Assembly (NCBI GenBank): GCA_021800255.1
Contig: JAJYZC010000020.1
Coordinates: 1 to 46,514 of the forward strand
Length of the DNA stretch: 46,514 nt
Origin: Acidobacteriota bacterium
GTDB lineage: Bacteria > Acidobacteriota > Terriglobia > Terriglobales > Acidobacteriaceae
Reading direction: 5' to 3'
This document shows positions 7,728 through 46,259 of the stretch, in pieces. Both the position numbers and the translations under genes were made by a program. How positions within the stretch are numbered: the first letter of the stretch is position 1; the number at the start of each line of letters is the position of its first letter. A model generated the notes under the pieces. The model was given only the letters and a program-made list of their open reading frames with translations, had not been told where the DNA came from and ran no database searches.

Positions 7728-7846
7728 AGTGGTCAGTGAACAGTGGTCAGTTGTCCGTTGAGAATGTGCGAAGAGAAGAGAAAAGAGAAGAGGCTGGAAC
7801 CGTCACGTACAAACTAGCCACTGACAACGGAAGACTGACAACTGGT
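7728..7846. repeat. heptamer arrays, CAGTGGT type, after tRNA-Tyr
   Basis: The left arm (7729-7763) reads in exact 7-base steps: GTGGTCA, GTGAACA, GTGGTCA, GTTGTCC, GTTGAGA. The right arm (7815-7845) holds inverted units (TGACAAC, GGAAGAC, TGACAAC). The spacer between is purine-rich. Confidence 0.85.
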
Positions 7847-7861
7847 TTTAGGCGGCGGGAG

Positions 7862-8122
7862 ATGGGAACCGGCTTGGAGAACGGGAAGTCAAGCCGCTCC
7901 GGGGCGGACCTCGACCGCAGGTTCTGGCCGGCTTTGGCGTTGTATGGAGTTTTGGCGTTGCTGGCCTGGTTCACTATGGGCCCGGAAACGGTGCTCGTCG
8001 AGGGCAGGCCGGTGGAGATGCGGTGGATTCCGCTCTTGGTGCTCGGCGGGTTGGCTTTACGTACTACGATGGCCCGGCACGCGGAAAAAATCCGCAGCCG
8101 GGGAGAGAAAGGCGGCTCTTAG
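7862..8122 (+). CDS. small two-helix membrane protein within the tRNA cluster
   Basis: The predicted 86-aa product has a basic N-terminus and two hydrophobic segments (FWPALALYGVLALLAWFTM and WIPLLVLGGLALRTTMA) separated by a short charged loop, then a basic tail. No family is recognised. The ATG at 7862 was chosen because the frame upstream (to 7736) is made of heptamer repeat and would not be expected to code; the GGCGGGAG just before the ATG is close for a ribosome site. It stands between tRNA-Tyr and tRNA-Thr(GGT). It could be a real accessory gene or a chance frame; the membrane pattern favours real. Confidence 0.55.
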   Translation: MGTGLENGKSSRSGADLDRRFWPALALYGVLALLAWFTMGPETVLVEGRPVEMRWIPLLVLGGLALRTTMARHAEKIRSRGEKGGS

Positions 8123-8129
8123 TTGTTGG

Positions 8130-8222
8130 CGATCAGCTTTTGCTTGTGCCGCGGCGGATGGGCCGATGCGGCTGGCTCCAGCAGGATGGATCTGAAGGCG
8201 GAAGGCTGAAAGCTGCGGTTTG
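8130..8222. repeat. degenerate heptamer arrays before tRNA-Thr(GGT)
   Basis: A short left arm (about 8130-8145, ATCAGCT TTTGCTT) and a right arm (about 8191-8222, GAAGGCTGAAAGCTG) in inverted orientation flank a spacer. Units are fewer and more diverged than in other gaps. Confidence 0.55.
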
Positions 8223-8225
8223 CGG

Positions 8226-8301
8226 GCTGATGTAGCTCAGTTGGTAGAGCACTCCCTTGGTAAGGGAGAGGTCACCAGTTCAATCCTGGTCATCAGCTCC
8301 A
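8226..8301 (+). tRNA. tRNA-Thr(GGT)
   Basis: A 76-nt cloverleaf: acceptor GCTGATG/CATCAGC, anticodon stem CTCCC/GGGAG with loop TTGGTAA (anticodon GGT), T arm CCAGTTCAATCCTGG, discriminator T and encoded CCA. Equivalent to thrT of the E. coli cluster, but here placed before tRNA-Gly instead of after it. Confidence 0.96.
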
Positions 8302-8303
8302 GA

Positions 8304-8401
8304 GATCAGCTATTAGCGATTAGCTTTTAGCTTATTTGGTTGCAGGTTGTGGCCGGTGCGAGCACGATGAAGCTAGAAGCTAATAGCTAAGGGCTGTTTT
8401 T
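8304..8401. repeat. heptamer arrays, TAGCTTT type, between tRNA-Thr and tRNA-Gly
   Basis: Left arm 8305-8334: ATCAGCT, ATTAGCG, ATTAGCT, TTTAGCT. Right arm 8369-8396: GAAGCTA, GAAGCTA, ATAGCTA, AGGGCTG, followed directly by five T (8397-8401), so the paired arms would look like a large intrinsic terminator or pause hairpin. Confidence 0.88.
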
Positions 8402-44025: not shown

Positions 44026-44747
44026 TGTCAGCATCTGGAACTGAAGTGGCAAGCGGCCGGGAGACAGGAAAGAACACTGTTCCCGGCCCAGTTCTTTTAT
44101 TGGGCGCGCCGGGGGTGGGCAAAGGAACTCAGGCCAAGGAGCTGGTCAAGCTGTGGGGTGTCCCGCAGATCTCCACCGGCGACCTGCTGCGCGCCAATGT
44201 GGCCCAAGGAACGCCCCTGGGCCGCGCGGCAAAGGAGATCATGGAACGGGGAGACCTGGTTCCCGACTCCTTGGTAGATGATATGGTTGCGGTGCGGCTC
44301 GGGCAGCCCGACACAGCCCGCGGTTACATTTTGGACGGGTTCCCGCGCACCCTGGTTCAGGCCAGTTGGCTGGATAGCCGCGTGGCGGCGCAAACTGGCG
44401 CGCTGGCGGTGGTTGCGGTCGACATCTATCTGAACTATAATGAGCTTTTGCGCCGCATTACGGGGCGCCGGAATTGTCCTGTCTGCCAGGCCATCTACAA
44501 CGTCTATGCGAACCCCCCCCAGCGGGAGGGATTCTGTGATGTAGAGGGTGCGGCGCTCATCCAGCGAGCCGACGACACGGAGCAGGTTTTTGAGGAGCGC
44601 ATGCGCGCTTACCAAGAGTTGACTGCGCCTGTTGTCGAGCACTACCGGGAACAGGGACGATTCGCGGAAGTGGATGGAAACCGGCCAATTGCGGCGATTA
44701 CGGCCGGAATTGTAGCCGCCGTTGATCTCTTGCGCCGTGCGGCGTAA
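44019..44747 (+). CDS. adk: adenylate kinase
   Basis: The 242-aa AMP kinase has an N-terminal extension of about 24 residues, P-loop GAPGVGKGTQ, NMP-binding region (GDLLRANVAQGTPLG, ERGDLVPDSLV), GYILDGFPRTLVQA, LRRITGRRNCPVC and QRADDTEQVFEERM. The LID holds CPVC plus FCD, but the fourth zinc position is Glu (FCDVEG instead of FCDxCG), so zinc binding is doubtful. It overlaps secY by 7 nt with AAGGA upstream; ATG 44025 is an alternative start. Confidence 0.96.
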   Translation: MVMSASGTEVASGRETGKNTVPGPVLLLGAPGVGKGTQAKELVKLWGVPQISTGDLLRANVAQGTPLGRAAKEIMERGDLVPDSLVDDMVAVRLGQPDTARGYILDGFPRTLVQASWLDSRVAAQTGALAVVAVDIYLNYNELLRRITGRRNCPVCQAIYNVYANPPQREGFCDVEGAALIQRADDTEQVFEERMRAYQELTAPVVEHYREQGRFAEVDGNRPIAAITAGIVAAVDLLRRAA

Positions 44748-44775
44748 CCGTCGCGGCGGGTTTATGTGTGTGGAA

Positions 44776-44958
44776 GACAGTTGTCAGTGATCGGCGGTCG
44801 TGGGCAGTTGATGAGTGCAGAAACTGAGCGCATCAACTTTCTCAGGACCCTGAAACGGCAACGCAAAAGACTGGCTGGCCAGTGAGTTGGGGGCAAGGGA
44901 AGACCGCCGGCAACGGCAGGATGGAACTGACCGCTAATCACTGACCGCCGAGAACTGG
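44776..44958. repeat. heptamer arrays, CAGTTGT/ACTGACC type, between adk and map
   Basis: Left arm 44776-44812 (CAGTTGT, CAGTGAT, CGGCGGT, CGTGGG, CAGTTGA). Right arm about 44923-44958 (AACTGAC, CGCTAAT, CACTGAC, CGCCGAG, AACTGG). Spacer about 110 nt, the longest in the cluster. Confidence 0.85.
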
Positions 44959-44962
44959 TTTC

Positions 44963-45712
44963 GTGGCCGTCGTACTGAAGTCGCCTCAAGAGATCGAGAA
45001 GATGGGCCGCGCTGGCCGTATCGTCCACGAGGTGCTGGAACTGGTGCGCAGCAAGGTGAAGCCAGGCGTCACCACCTACGATCTGGAGAAGGCCGCCGTG
45101 GCCCGGCTTAAAGATCTGGGTGTGAAAGCCGCCTTCAAGGGGTACCAGGGGTATCCGTGCGTTTTGTGTACGTCGGTCAACAGCGAGGTGGTGCACGGCA
45201 TCCCCTCGCCCAAGCGGGTGCTCAAGGCCGGGGACATTGTTTCGGTGGATTTCGGCGTGGTGGTGGACGGCTATTATGGGGACGCGGCCGTTACCATCCC
45301 GGTGGGCGCCATCGACGCCGATGCTGCGCGCCTGCTCAAAGTTACTGAGGCCTCGCTGCAAGCTGGAATCGCTGCGGTGCGGCCGGGAGCGACGCTAGGC
45401 GATGTAGGCGCTGCGGTGCAGGGTGTAGTGGAGCGGGAGGGCTTTTCAGTGGTGCGGGATTTTGTGGGTCACGGCATCGGTGCGAACATGCACGAAGATC
45501 CGCAGGTGCCGAACTTTGGCGCCCCCGGCCAAGGCATGAAGCTGCGCACCGGGATGGTGATCGCCATCGAGCCGATGGTGAATGCCGGCAAGCCCGAAGT
45601 AATGGTCCTGCCCGATGGCTGGACGGCGGTGGCCAAGGACGGAAGCATGAGTGCTCACTTTGAGCACACGGTGGCTGTGACTGCCGATGGGGCCAGGATT
45701 TTGACGGTGTAG
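44963..45712 (+). CDS. map: methionine aminopeptidase, type I
   Basis: The 249-aa metallo-enzyme removes the initiator Met. It has EKMGRAGRIVHEVLE, TSVNSEVVHGIPSP, the metal ligands VDFGVVVDGYYGDAA (Asp pair), GHGIG (His), IAIEPMVN (Glu) and the final FEHTVAV (Glu). It starts at GTG 44963 (no ATG before residue 14), right after the repeat arm; TTTC before the GTG means a weak ribosome site. Confidence 0.97.
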   Translation: MAVVLKSPQEIEKMGRAGRIVHEVLELVRSKVKPGVTTYDLEKAAVARLKDLGVKAAFKGYQGYPCVLCTSVNSEVVHGIPSPKRVLKAGDIVSVDFGVVVDGYYGDAAVTIPVGAIDADAARLLKVTEASLQAGIAAVRPGATLGDVGAAVQGVVEREGFSVVRDFVGHGIGANMHEDPQVPNFGAPGQGMKLRTGMVIAIEPMVNAGKPEVMVLPDGWTAVAKDGSMSAHFEHTVAVTADGARILTV

Positions 45713-45953
45713 GCGGGAAGCAGCCTCTACGATTGTCATTCCCGGCGAACTCCCGCAGGGAGAAAGTTGAAAGCCCGCCCTGAGCGGGAACCGCTCAGGC
45801 GACCGAAGTCGAAGAGGTATCTGCGGTTGCCGTTTTACCGCGCAGGCAAGATGGCCGGCTTCTCGATGGAGCTGGAGTGAATGAGTTGGAGGCCGGGCGG
45901 TGCCCGGCAAAGCAGCCGGCGTAGGAAAGCGATCCGGCGGAAATGGACACAGC
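45713..45953. other. 241-nt gap between map and infA
   Basis: Unlike other gaps it lacks heptamer arrays. It holds a TGTCATTCCCG-led segment with palindromic parts (CCCGC/GCGGG, CTGAGCGG/CCGCTCAG around 45779-45798) and GTCGAAGAGG, which resembles dispersed REP-like elements seen in related genomes. This resemblance is from memory. Confidence 0.45.
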
Positions 45954-46172
45954 TTGTCAAAGGAAGACGCGATTGAGGTGATGGCTACGGTGATCGAGAC
46001 GTTGCCCAACGCCATGTTTAAGGTCAAACTTGAGAACAATCACGAGGTGCTGACCCATGTTTCGGGCCGGATGCGCAAGAATTTCATCCGCATTTTGCCC
46101 GGTGACCGCGTGGCTGTAGAATTGAGTCCTTACGACCTCAATCGCGGACGGATCGTGTACCGCTACAAATAG
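45954..46172 (+). CDS. infA: translation initiation factor IF-1
   Basis: The 72-aa OB-fold protein blocks the A site during initiation. It begins SKEDAIEVMATVIETLPNAMF and ends GRIVYRYK. The start is a TTG at 45954, which gives the standard 72 residues; GTG 45900 in frame would add an 18-residue Gly-rich tail unlike the family. No strong ribosome site is visible for either. Confidence 0.95.
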   Translation: MSKEDAIEVMATVIETLPNAMFKVKLENNHEVLTHVSGRMRKNFIRILPGDRVAVELSPYDLNRGRIVYRYK

Positions 46173-46259
46173 CTGCTGGTCTCTAGCTTTTAGTCCTTGG
46201 TGCGAGGCGTTGTGCGTTGTTCTCGCGCAATGAGCTAGAATCTCGAGGCTGGAAGCTCA
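46171..46259. repeat. heptamer arrays, TAGCTTT type, between infA and rpmJ
   Basis: Left arm 46171-46200 (TAGCTGC, TGGTCTC, TAGCTTT, TAGTCCT). Right arm 46230-46259 (GAGCTAG, AATCTCG, AGGCTGG, AAGCTC). More diverged than most. Confidence 0.7.

Follow-up and report, generated by a model that had tools for sequence, protein, structure and literature searches.

Tandem heptanucleotides in intergenic DNA are familiar from the STRR repeats of heterocystous cyanobacteria, which resemble the arrays analyzed here in this respect and differ in that, to our knowledge, they do not form paired inverted arms. In REPINs and BIMEs, which are REP pairs linked to RAYT transposases, two inverted units surround a short intergenic spacer. 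Inverted pairs of heptamer arrays have been described in Xanthomonas, where the GGGAATC repeats are tandem, mostly intergenic units with position-specific variation, four units being commonest (Rehm et al. 2015, PMC4692102). In the available text of that paper, the arrays lie near the upstream ORF (28 nt on average), convergent inverted pairs number 70 and 75 in two genomes with the paired type usually kept between both species, and a single G-rich heptamer is followed as a quadruplex former with chromosome-wide dispersal. The TAACTGA repeats of Beggiatoaceae, Cyanobacteria and Bacteroidetes are found mostly just 5′ of start codons and also within ribosomal-protein operons, and an SD is rare there (MacGregor 2015, PMC4679880). 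As far as the available text goes, these are direct repeats of one heptamer with one inverted case, and a left arm is not described; Calothrix heptanucleotides are mentioned in both papers.

The window analyzed here is a stretch of 46,514 nt from an Acidobacteriota bacterium (contig JAJYZC010000020.1). According to a preliminary description, heptamer arrays fill nearly every gap of its translation gene clusters, and this was confirmed. Among 29 such gaps, a chain detector whose threshold is reached by 0.7% of shuffled half-gaps found a left arm of YAG heptamers in 21 and an inverse right arm in 19, with both arms in 15 gaps, at least one arm in 25 and none in 4 (rpsS/rplV, rplP/rpmC, rpsH/rplF and rplO/secY). 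When a stricter two-arm caller is applied, only 5 of 19 window gaps qualify. The lag-7 check proposed in the same description also came out in its favor: pooled self-match in 22 window gaps is 0.394 at lag 7, 0.364 at lag 14 and 0.320 at lag 21, as against 0.26 at lag 7 and 0.303 at lag 21 in coding DNA. Gap by gap, the lag-7 z relative to shuffles is at least 3.2 in 18 of 22, and the signal is flat in rpsG-fusA (1.4), rpsS-rplV (1.9), rplP-rpmC (0.9) and rplO-secY (1.0). Within the extent originally given, 7728 to 46259, a single weak chain (17206) was found among the other genes from about 12.3 to 26.4 kb, and one more element lies outside this extent, at 5928-5991. The common core is YAG instead of the proposed YAGY skeleton, as YAGGG, YAGGT and YAGAG classes were found. 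The individual elements are collected in Table 1. One unit of the tuf2/rpsJ left arm is 8 nt long, on which the detector failed, and the downstream part of the fusA/tuf2 element is common to the region upstream of tuf1.

Table 1. Heptamer elements of the window.
Location	Span	Strand	Left arm	Right arm	Remarks
3′ of tRNA-Tyr	7727..7844	.	7727-7754	7810-7844	left arm class TG/TT
5′ of tRNA-Thr (GGT)	8188..8215	.			right arm alone
tRNA-Thr/tRNA-Gly	8307..8396	.	8307-8334	8369-8396	class CT; at 8302-8405 of the window; spacer untranslated
3′ of tRNA-Gly	8486..8597	.	8486-8520	8563-8597	class CT
5′ of tuf copy 1	8927..9102	.	8927-8954	9068-9102	compound; inner right-sense array to 9022
tuf1/rpmG	10332..10385	.	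10332-10359	10372-10385	right arm weak
rpmG/tRNA-Trp	10580..10684	.	10580-10614	10650-10684	arms of five units
3′ of tRNA-Trp	10777..10818	.			left arm; right arm degenerate
nusG/rplK	11860..12001	.	11860-11894	11953-12001	
rpsL/rpsG	26481..26570	.	26481-26501	26543-26570	
3′ of rpsG	27062..27089	.			left arm alone; GGGACTA class
fusA/tuf copy 2	29325..29502	.	29325-29352	29468-29502	
tuf2/rpsJ	30727..30825	.	by eye	30805-30825	GGGACTA class
rpsJ/rplC	31191..31307	.	31191-31218	31294-31307	right arm weak
rplW/rplB	33112..33204	.			spacer begins TTCGTGC
rplB/rpsS	34058..34177	.	34058-34092	34150-34177	
rpsC/rplP	35961..36115	.	35961-35988	36081-36115	GGGACTA class
rpsQ/rplN	37278..37349	.			
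rplN/rplX	37756..37806	.			spacer nearly absent
rplX/rplE	38147..38244	.			
rplE/rpsN	38867..38995	.	38867-38908	38982-38995	right arm weak
rpsN/rpsH	39296..39316	.			right arm alone above threshold
rplF/rplR	40497..40594	.	40497-40531	40574-40594	right arm degenerate
rplR/rpsE	41015..41092	.	41015-41028	41065-41092	left arm short, sub-threshold
rpmD/rplO	41814..41905	.	41814-41841	41885-41905	

The window was compared with relatives, represented by the best 80 of 289 loci; related species are non-independent because one genome was taken per species. Restricting the set to gaps of 30-600 nt gave 1138, of which 1011 remained once 2 with N and those shorter than 56 nt had been removed. In these, 354 left and 277 right arms have a period of 7, and periods of 5, 6, 8, 9 and 10 give at most 7. 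The two arms stand together, inverted as described earlier, in 220 of the 1011 gaps. Arm comparisons are confined to these 220, in which both arms have at least three units, and counts on the tree to 216 of them; rare longer arms, such as one of about 14 units in a relative's rpsC-rplP gap (L003), lie outside this set. Long homogeneous runs occur as well, for example nine AAAAGCT at another locus (L109). The median distance is 4 nt from the stop to the left arm and 19 nt from the end of the right arm to the start. The right arm ends upstream of an SD-like word in 80% of 196, and this placement agrees with the original assignment of the arms to the stop and ribosome-site sides. Of the 220 gaps, 195 have an SD-like word. 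T makes up 40-50% at positions 2-5 on the 3′ side of the right arm; an intrinsic terminator, whose stem would precede a U run at which transcription stops, is a candidate reading. The word TTCGTGC is found in 19 of the 220 spacers, over 9 gap types and 14 genomes, and in 32 gaps as against 7 for its reverse complement. That the spacers form one conserved family around this word was rejected, as whole spacers are mostly dissimilar.

Left arms in the two-armed gaps belong mostly to the YAGCT, YAGTG and YAGTT classes. In orthologous gaps the heptamer class varies between species and the two arms agree, with 17 of 216 gaps discordant by the fourth base and 55 of 216 by the two-base flavor. At least 58 class switches, over 17 orthologous gaps, are counted on the tree; where close species pairs share a gap and differ in class, both arms had switched in 13 cases and were discordant in 1. 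This agreement is at the level of the family, or class. Unit by unit, the arms match 246 times compared with 241.8 ± 8.5 after shuffling, and unit order at positions 4-6 is no better forward than reversed. Compensatory pairing between arms across relatives had been put forward as a test by which the original claim could fail; arm class is coordinated across relatives and the claim thus survives this test, whereas base-pair compensation, present at the class level, was not seen at the unit level. Contrary results were obtained at an offset of one unit, where inter-arm agreement at position 6 is 0.445 compared with 0.383 ± 0.021 after shuffling and, over the five variable positions, forward minus reversed is 0.258 (CI 0.008-0.508). 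Inter-arm agreement is also higher forward than reversed at positions 7 and 1, which is attributed to the C at the outer end. A copied hairpin, with one arm templated on the other, is not supported, as the unit order is unmirrored. Within arms, identity at positions 4-7 is 0.086 between neighboring units compared with 0.135 after shuffling (z -7), and 0.230 compared with 0.146 between second neighbors (z +7). As adjacent units avoid identity, a simple sequence repeat arising by one-unit slippage was rejected, a ruling that concerns one-unit and not two-unit steps.

Two-armed gaps are enriched in translation clusters. They make up 11 of 34 gaps in the window compared with 1 of 99 in an unselected sample, and in the S10 clusters of two further genomes 10 of 16 compared with 3 of 58 (Acidobacteria bacterium AB60) and 8 of 16 compared with 1 of 48 (Occallatibacter savannae AB23). 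Relative to sampled co-directional gaps, the odds ratios in the three genomes are 31-47, with genes outside the S10 cluster called by a simple custom caller and a two-arm rule slightly different for S10 gaps and genome samples. The records of AB23 and AB60 carry no MAG tag, and experimental strains should therefore exist. Elsewhere in the window's own genome, elements were found around pattern hits at rpoB-rpoC, rpsK-rpsD, rplM-rpsI and the ATP synthase a and c subunit genes, and also at fliE-fliF, leuD-ilvD and ilvD-ilvB. Some adjoin nupC, thymidine phosphorylase and NtrC-type regulators, genes without a reputation for high expression.

The claim that the arms can pair is borne out in silico: class-matched elements fold with a mean z of -4.08 (n = 163), compared with -0.29 for coding 120-mers (n = 200). 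In class-mismatched two-armed gaps the value is -3.66 (n = 57), which is close to that of matched elements, so that class agreement is not demanded by folding alone. In a strict element-free set, comprising 147 gaps from 10 genomes in which no arm chain occurs, it is -1.62, which means that gaps of these kinds lean to hairpins regardless of heptamers.

An explanation has to account for what the comparison established, namely the architecture, the placement, the enrichment in translation clusters, the folding potential in silico and the agreement of class through switches. The reading that we tentatively favor, at somewhat short of an even chance, is that hairpin cassettes are retained in presumably highly expressed operons for a role at the RNA level while their sequence turns over. 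The intercistronic cassette has a length of roughly 110-120 nt and is situated in the transcribed spacer, after the upstream stop (or RNA end) and ahead of the next SD, mostly in operons whose gene content suggests high expression. Its left arm comprises three to five imperfect heptamers of the form YAG-XX-N-Y. A few dozen nt of spacer separate this from the right arm, whose heptamers are reverse complements and belong to the left arm's class; CAG and CTG form the outer ends. The transcript would fold the two arms together, and the hairpin itself may be what selection keeps, for RNA stability, processing or insulation of neighboring genes. Cassettes would probably be replaced as wholes. Besides folding, enrichment and class agreement, this reading has in its favor that the distance left outside the element is close to the gap length of element-free genomes at rplB-rpsS (11 and 19 nt) and rplE-rpsN (20 and 29 nt). 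Against it count the similar folding of class-mismatched gaps, the lack of unit-by-unit compensation, the labile and patchy presence detailed below and the elements beside genes without a reputation for high expression.

It is a serious possibility, though one well below even, that the repeats have no function and are targeted by transcription, in which case a mutational or mobile process would favor heavily transcribed spacers and inserts sparing the SD would survive by chance. Presence of the two-armed element is indeed labile (among close pairs, in one genome only for 65 gaps and in both for 36) and patchy over the phylum, where the CT-class pattern has no match in 285 of 396 sampled genomes. 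The occurrence of elements in tRNA and rRNA spacers and the absence of unit-level compensation fit as well, and so does the dispersal of arms over the genome around unique spacers: when two whole gaps were searched, the arms matched elsewhere in their own genome and the rpsJ/rplC and rpsC/rplP spacers did not. Useless inserts should, however, be least tolerable where genes are essential and presumably highly expressed, and these operons show the highest enrichment. Moreover, no flush target-site duplication was found, and searches for RVT_1 and Y1_Tnp matches yielded no mobilizer. Flush direct repeats are at chance (k=3, 8 compared with 5.8 ± 2.2; k=4, 3 compared with 3.0; k=5, 0 compared with 0.5), and shared words anywhere within 9 nt are slightly over chance (k=3, 142 compared with 123 ± 7; k=4, 52 compared with 41.5 ± 5.3). 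A MITE was rejected both by this lack of flush duplication and by the uniqueness of the two tested spacers; of 508 within-genome spacer pairs, 0.6% lie above the 99th percentile of between-genome pairs. A reverse-transcriptase writer was rejected because RVT_1 has no match in the window's own genome. Y1_Tnp has 3 matches there and none in the array-rich genomes G134, G182 and G320, by which a REPIN/RAYT origin was rejected; among 16 Y1 loci fetched, arms lie on both sides in one (L166), where the right array, by eye, lies at the end of another gene. As to how arms are made, it is conceivable but quite improbable that both are written in one event when heavily transcribed spacer DNA breaks and each 3′ end is extended by class-specific heptamers whose sixth base varies, in a telomerase-like manner although RVT_1 has no match in this genome. 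If true, this would account for inverted arms of a single class, an unmirrored unit order and a hypervariable base per unit, together with unique filler between the arms and a simultaneous class switch of both.

The remaining readings assign the repeats a role in translation or protein binding. Translational coupling, in which pairing of the arms would loop out the spacer so that the start comes to lie close to the stop, was the original proposal and is unlikely. Placement and folding accord with it, as does the distance left outside the element: of 19 gap types, 11 have a median of 11-25 nt and the other 8 of 34-83 nt. Genomes without a called two-armed element, the definition used for folding and gap-length comparisons under which a single arm is present in 22 of 352 gaps, nevertheless have gaps with medians of 59-153 nt for 18 gap types out of 25. 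Elements are also found between tRNA genes (tRNA-Thr/tRNA-Gly, and tRNA-Ile/tRNA-Ala in one rRNA operon of the two examined), where there is no stop or start to couple, and stop-start coupling is therefore not the general function. Recognition of YAG at 7-nt intervals by a protein, with the heptamers as direct-repeat sites as in MacGregor's proposal for TAACTGA (S1, cold-shock or CsrA-like proteins), is very improbable. It would suit the conservation of A2 and G3, whose mismatch between orthologous elements (0.14 and 0.08, compared with 0.19 in the spacer) is the lowest of the unit positions, figures that are not free of bias because one sequence of each pair had to contain YAG; the inverted partner and the class bases common to both arms would be left unexplained. 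Least probable of all is that the period-7 right arm, as C + stop + NNN, offers a stop in every frame and shields the next gene from run-on ribosomes. Of 1421 unit junctions in right-arm sense, 1163 are CTGA, CTAG or CTAA, and CTGG is depleted (77 compared with 250 expected), but CTAA, likewise a stop, is depleted too (189 compared with 348 expected). With this partial fit to the junction counts, with CAG instead of TAG in 62% of left-arm units (a figure from an arm caller prone to confusion by CTAG palindromes) and with untranslated tRNA spacers among the sites, the stop-codon reading was rejected.

With class switches and arms in step at 17 orthologous gaps, this highly conserved bacterial operon constitutes a replicated natural experiment. 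It makes two questions testable: whether intercistronic hairpins of ribosomal operons are selected for structure over sequence, and how bacteria build paired heptamer arrays. With regard to known systems, REPINs and BIMEs share the two inverted arms flanking a short intergenic spacer, whereas here the arms are heptamer arrays, the two tested spacers are unique and some array-rich genomes lack Y1_Tnp. The YAGTT class, read in right-arm sense, corresponds to TAACTGA, and placement upstream of starts and in ribosomal-protein operons is common to both; as far as the available text of that report goes, several classes, inverted pairs and a frequent SD-like word set the present elements apart. The closest precedent is the inverted heptamer pairs of Xanthomonas GGGAATC, so the earlier statement that paired inverted arms had not been seen described was half right (PMC4692102). 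Judged by the available text, the two systems have in common tandem 7-nt units, a mostly intergenic location near the upstream ORF and inverted pairs. The G-rich, quadruplex-capable Xanthomonas unit GGGANTN is not the rule here, where the GG class accounts for only 24 of 220 left arms, and the acidobacterial elements differ in having several classes per genome, class switching of both arms and a concentration in translation operons. New here are orthologous gaps that carry different heptamer classes with both arms in step.

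Inverted arrays with a period of seven nucleotides are real features of the gaps in the translation clusters, as the preliminary description had proposed. Pooled lag-7 self-match over 22 window gaps is 0.394, with further peaks at 14 and 21, compared to 0.26 in coding DNA; the signal stands above both coding and shuffled sequence, with z ≥3.2 in 18 of the 22 gaps and the other four flat. An explicit arm detector, which passes 0.7% of shuffled half-gaps, was applied to 29 window gaps. Here, a left arm of YAG heptamers was called in 21, an inverse-sense right arm in 19 and both in 15; 25 gaps contain at least one arm and four contain none. 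In the source genome (3.36 Mb in 102 contigs, the window being contig C88), AGCTNNNAGCTNNNAGCT has 83 matches and the reversed pattern has none. Genes named by NCBIfam in the window are tuf, secE, nusG, rpsG, fusA, rpsJ, rplC, rplB, rpsS, rpsC, rplP, rplN, rplX, rplE, rpsN, rpsH, rplF, rplR, rplO and secY; the remaining ribosomal genes were assigned from gene order and by eye, and five tRNA genes were found by ARAGORN.

Relatives were taken from the best 80 of 289 RpsC matches in named genomes, 78 of the 80 being titled Acidobacteria or Acidobacteriaceae genera (we take the genera in some titles to belong to the Acidobacteriaceae), and the closest among them being 96% identical. Two contigs titled Opitutaceae (L037, RpsC 93% identical to that of the window) and Verrucomicrobia (L070, 86%) are possibly misbinned or mislabelled. 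These best 80 loci and the window supplied 1138 gaps of 30–600 nt, and arm counts rest on 1011 N-free gaps of 56 nt or more. Period 7 gives 354 left and 277 right arms, while periods 5, 6, 8, 9 and 10 give at most seven. When all trinucleotide skeletons are counted, YAG is the most enriched three-unit run in left halves (759, with 1.7 expected), as is CTR (544, with 0.5 expected) in right halves. In the 220 two-armed gaps, arms are mostly three to five units long (101 left and 89 right arms have five units, and 7 left and 9 right arms are longer), and the outermost unit begins with C in 187 left and 193 right arms, compared to 54–58% of inner units. The spacer measures 35–59 nt in the middle half and 17–90 nt in the middle 90%. 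Rare long arms (see table) show that expansion of arrays does happen.

Coordinates of individual arrays, spacers and comparison sites
Sequence	Position	Feature
Window	5928-5991	Paired array flanked by two non-ribosomal ORFs: TAGGGAC units followed by right-sense units; beyond the coordinates of the preliminary description
Window	about 8990-9131	Upstream of one tuf copy; near identical to the next entry, left halves of the gaps differing (by eye)
Window	29390-29531	Upstream of the other tuf copy
Window	33130-33140	TTCGTGC directly after a left arm
L003	 	rpsC-rplP gap, arm of about 14 units
L109	8994-9143	Run of nine AAAAGCT
G396, C6	40884-40988	About 15 CAGCTTT-type units
L155 (AB23)	2942-3023	rRNA operon, tRNA-Ile/tRNA-Ala spacer filled by an element
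L156 (AB60)	6258-6280	rRNA operon, tRNA-Ile/tRNA-Ala spacer of 23 nt, no element

The class of an element is defined by bases 4–5 of its unit, and an orthologous gap holds YAGCT, YAGTT, YAGTG, YAGGG or rarer classes depending on the species. Class is equal in both arms of 163 of the 220 two-armed gaps; reshuffling the right arms lowers this to 112.8 ± 5.2 (within genomes) or 86.5 ± 5.5 (within gaps). Parsimony at base 4 requires 68 left and 65 right changes, and 75 for the joint state versus 107.2 ± 2.8 with right states permuted; for bases 4–5 (55 of 216 discordant), the values are 94, 84 and 108 versus 135.8 ± 2.9. The arms are coordinated across relatives, class remaining in step through at least 58 switches among concordant elements at base 4 (17 of 216 discordant) and at least 53 at bases 4–5.

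Between close species (ribosomal genes ≥88.5% identical), class is kept in 22 shared elements (gap identity 0.45–0.91), both arms have switched in 13 (0.45–0.68) and one is discordant. Where spacers align well, class is identical in 62 of 63 pairs, and part of this association may be mere divergence time. Loci L029 and L042 share 0.91 identity in the rplP-rpmC gap, and at rpsC-rplP arms and spacer both differ between conserved flanks. From such comparisons we infer that cassettes are replaced as wholes. At the two tuf copies, it looks as if gene conversion had ended inside the spacer. TTCGTGC directly follows left arms of various classes, gaps and species in 19 of 220 spacers, with a strand bias of 32 gaps versus 7.

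Arm agreement is clear at the family level and not in unit order. Among 139 elements whose arms both contain mixed units, class matches between individual units number 246 of 534, versus 241.8 ± 8.5 with shuffled order. In 128 elements, positions 4–5 and position 6 match no better in forward than in reversed order; we attribute an excess at positions 7 and 1 to the outer-end C, and at offset +1 a marginal forward excess is seen over all variable positions. In facing units, agreement at position 6 is 0.347 at offset 0 (0.376 ± 0.020 shuffled) and 0.445 at offset +1 (0.383 ± 0.021), and at position 1 it is 0.783 versus 0.678 at offset 0. Cross-arm identity within an element, versus other elements of the same genome, is 0.88/0.50, 0.64/0.48, 0.35/0.28 and 0.70/0.50 at positions 4 to 7. 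Position 6 is the most variable, its base preference depending on class (for example, A or G in the TG and GG classes). Adjacent units avoid identity (z −7; 60 of 973 identical) and second neighbours are alike (z +7). In 254 orthologous alignments with alignable spacers, some of them poor, mismatch is 0.36–0.43 at positions 4–7, 0.23 at position 1, 0.14 at A2, 0.08 at G3 and 0.19 in the spacer, suggesting that units turn over faster than by point mutation alone.

The preliminary description had the paired arms bring stop and start codons together, which is unlikely as a general role. For 11 of the 19 gap types, the distance outside the element has a median of 11–25 nt; for the other 8, the median is 34–83 nt. 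Where genomes lack a two-armed element, rplB-rpsS has a median gap of 19 nt and rplE-rpsN one of 29 nt, and 18 of 25 types have medians of 59–153 nt. The overlapping or nearly touching pairs rplD-rplW, rpmC-rpsQ and rpsE-rpmD yielded no two-armed element. The tRNA-Ile/tRNA-Ala spacers of AB60 and AB23 are a handy empty-site comparison.

A role of the hairpin, which would act at the RNA level, is tentatively favoured at just under even chances over inert repeats targeted to transcribed DNA, themselves not much less likely. Mean folding z is −4.08 in 163 class-matched elements (87% below −2), −3.66 in 57 class-mismatched elements, −1.69 in 782 other gaps and −0.29 in 200 coding 120-mers; in the window gaps it is −2.24 over 19, several being weak. 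The 147 gaps from 10 genomes without any arm chain average −1.62 (37% below −2), so ribosomal-cluster gaps lean to hairpins even without heptamers.

In co-directional gaps of 60–400 nt of the source genome, any arm occurs in 21 of 34 window gaps versus 6 of 99 in an unselected sample, and both arms in 11 versus 1. Two-armed gaps number 10 of 16 in the S10 cluster of AB60 versus 3 of 58 sampled, and 8 of 16 versus 1 of 48 in AB23. In both of these samples, arm counts are little above those of the reversed-sequence control (22 versus 14 in AB60, 18 versus 12 in AB23). A co-directional bias is seen in the window (21/34 versus 0/6, p 0.007) and in the source genome with pattern-hit regions included (41/200 versus 6/114, p 2e-4); it is absent from the unselected sample (6/99 versus 3/62), AB60 (7/58 versus 2/28) and AB23 (4/48 versus 5/31). 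Around hits outside the window, elements occur at rpoB-rpoC, rpsK-rpsD, rplM-rpsI, fliE-fliF, leuD-ilvD and ilvD-ilvB, at an ATP synthase a gene and a c-like gene (the c-like match below its cut-off), and beside fabH, nupC, thymidine phosphorylase and NtrC-type genes.

Of 396 genomes sampled from the phylum, 111 contain a match to a CT-class pattern of three units (at most three mismatches), and the signal is strong in scattered genera. Many genomes also match the reversed control, some of them more often than the pattern itself, so low counts may be chance. Genome G061, outside the taxonomic class of the window, has inverted heptamer pairs of the same kind in the stretches fetched. At three places there (L120, L121, L122; by eye), AGGACTG arrays lie between convergent genes, right-sense first, the reverse of the intra-operon order. 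A literature search, with most subscription papers outside its reach, found no title on heptamer arrays in Acidobacteria; literature cited alongside is PMC4692102, PMC4679880, PMC4060949, PMC3733652 and PMC12306157. That the two arms of these intercistronic inverted-heptamer elements change class together goes beyond what the preliminary description had claimed.
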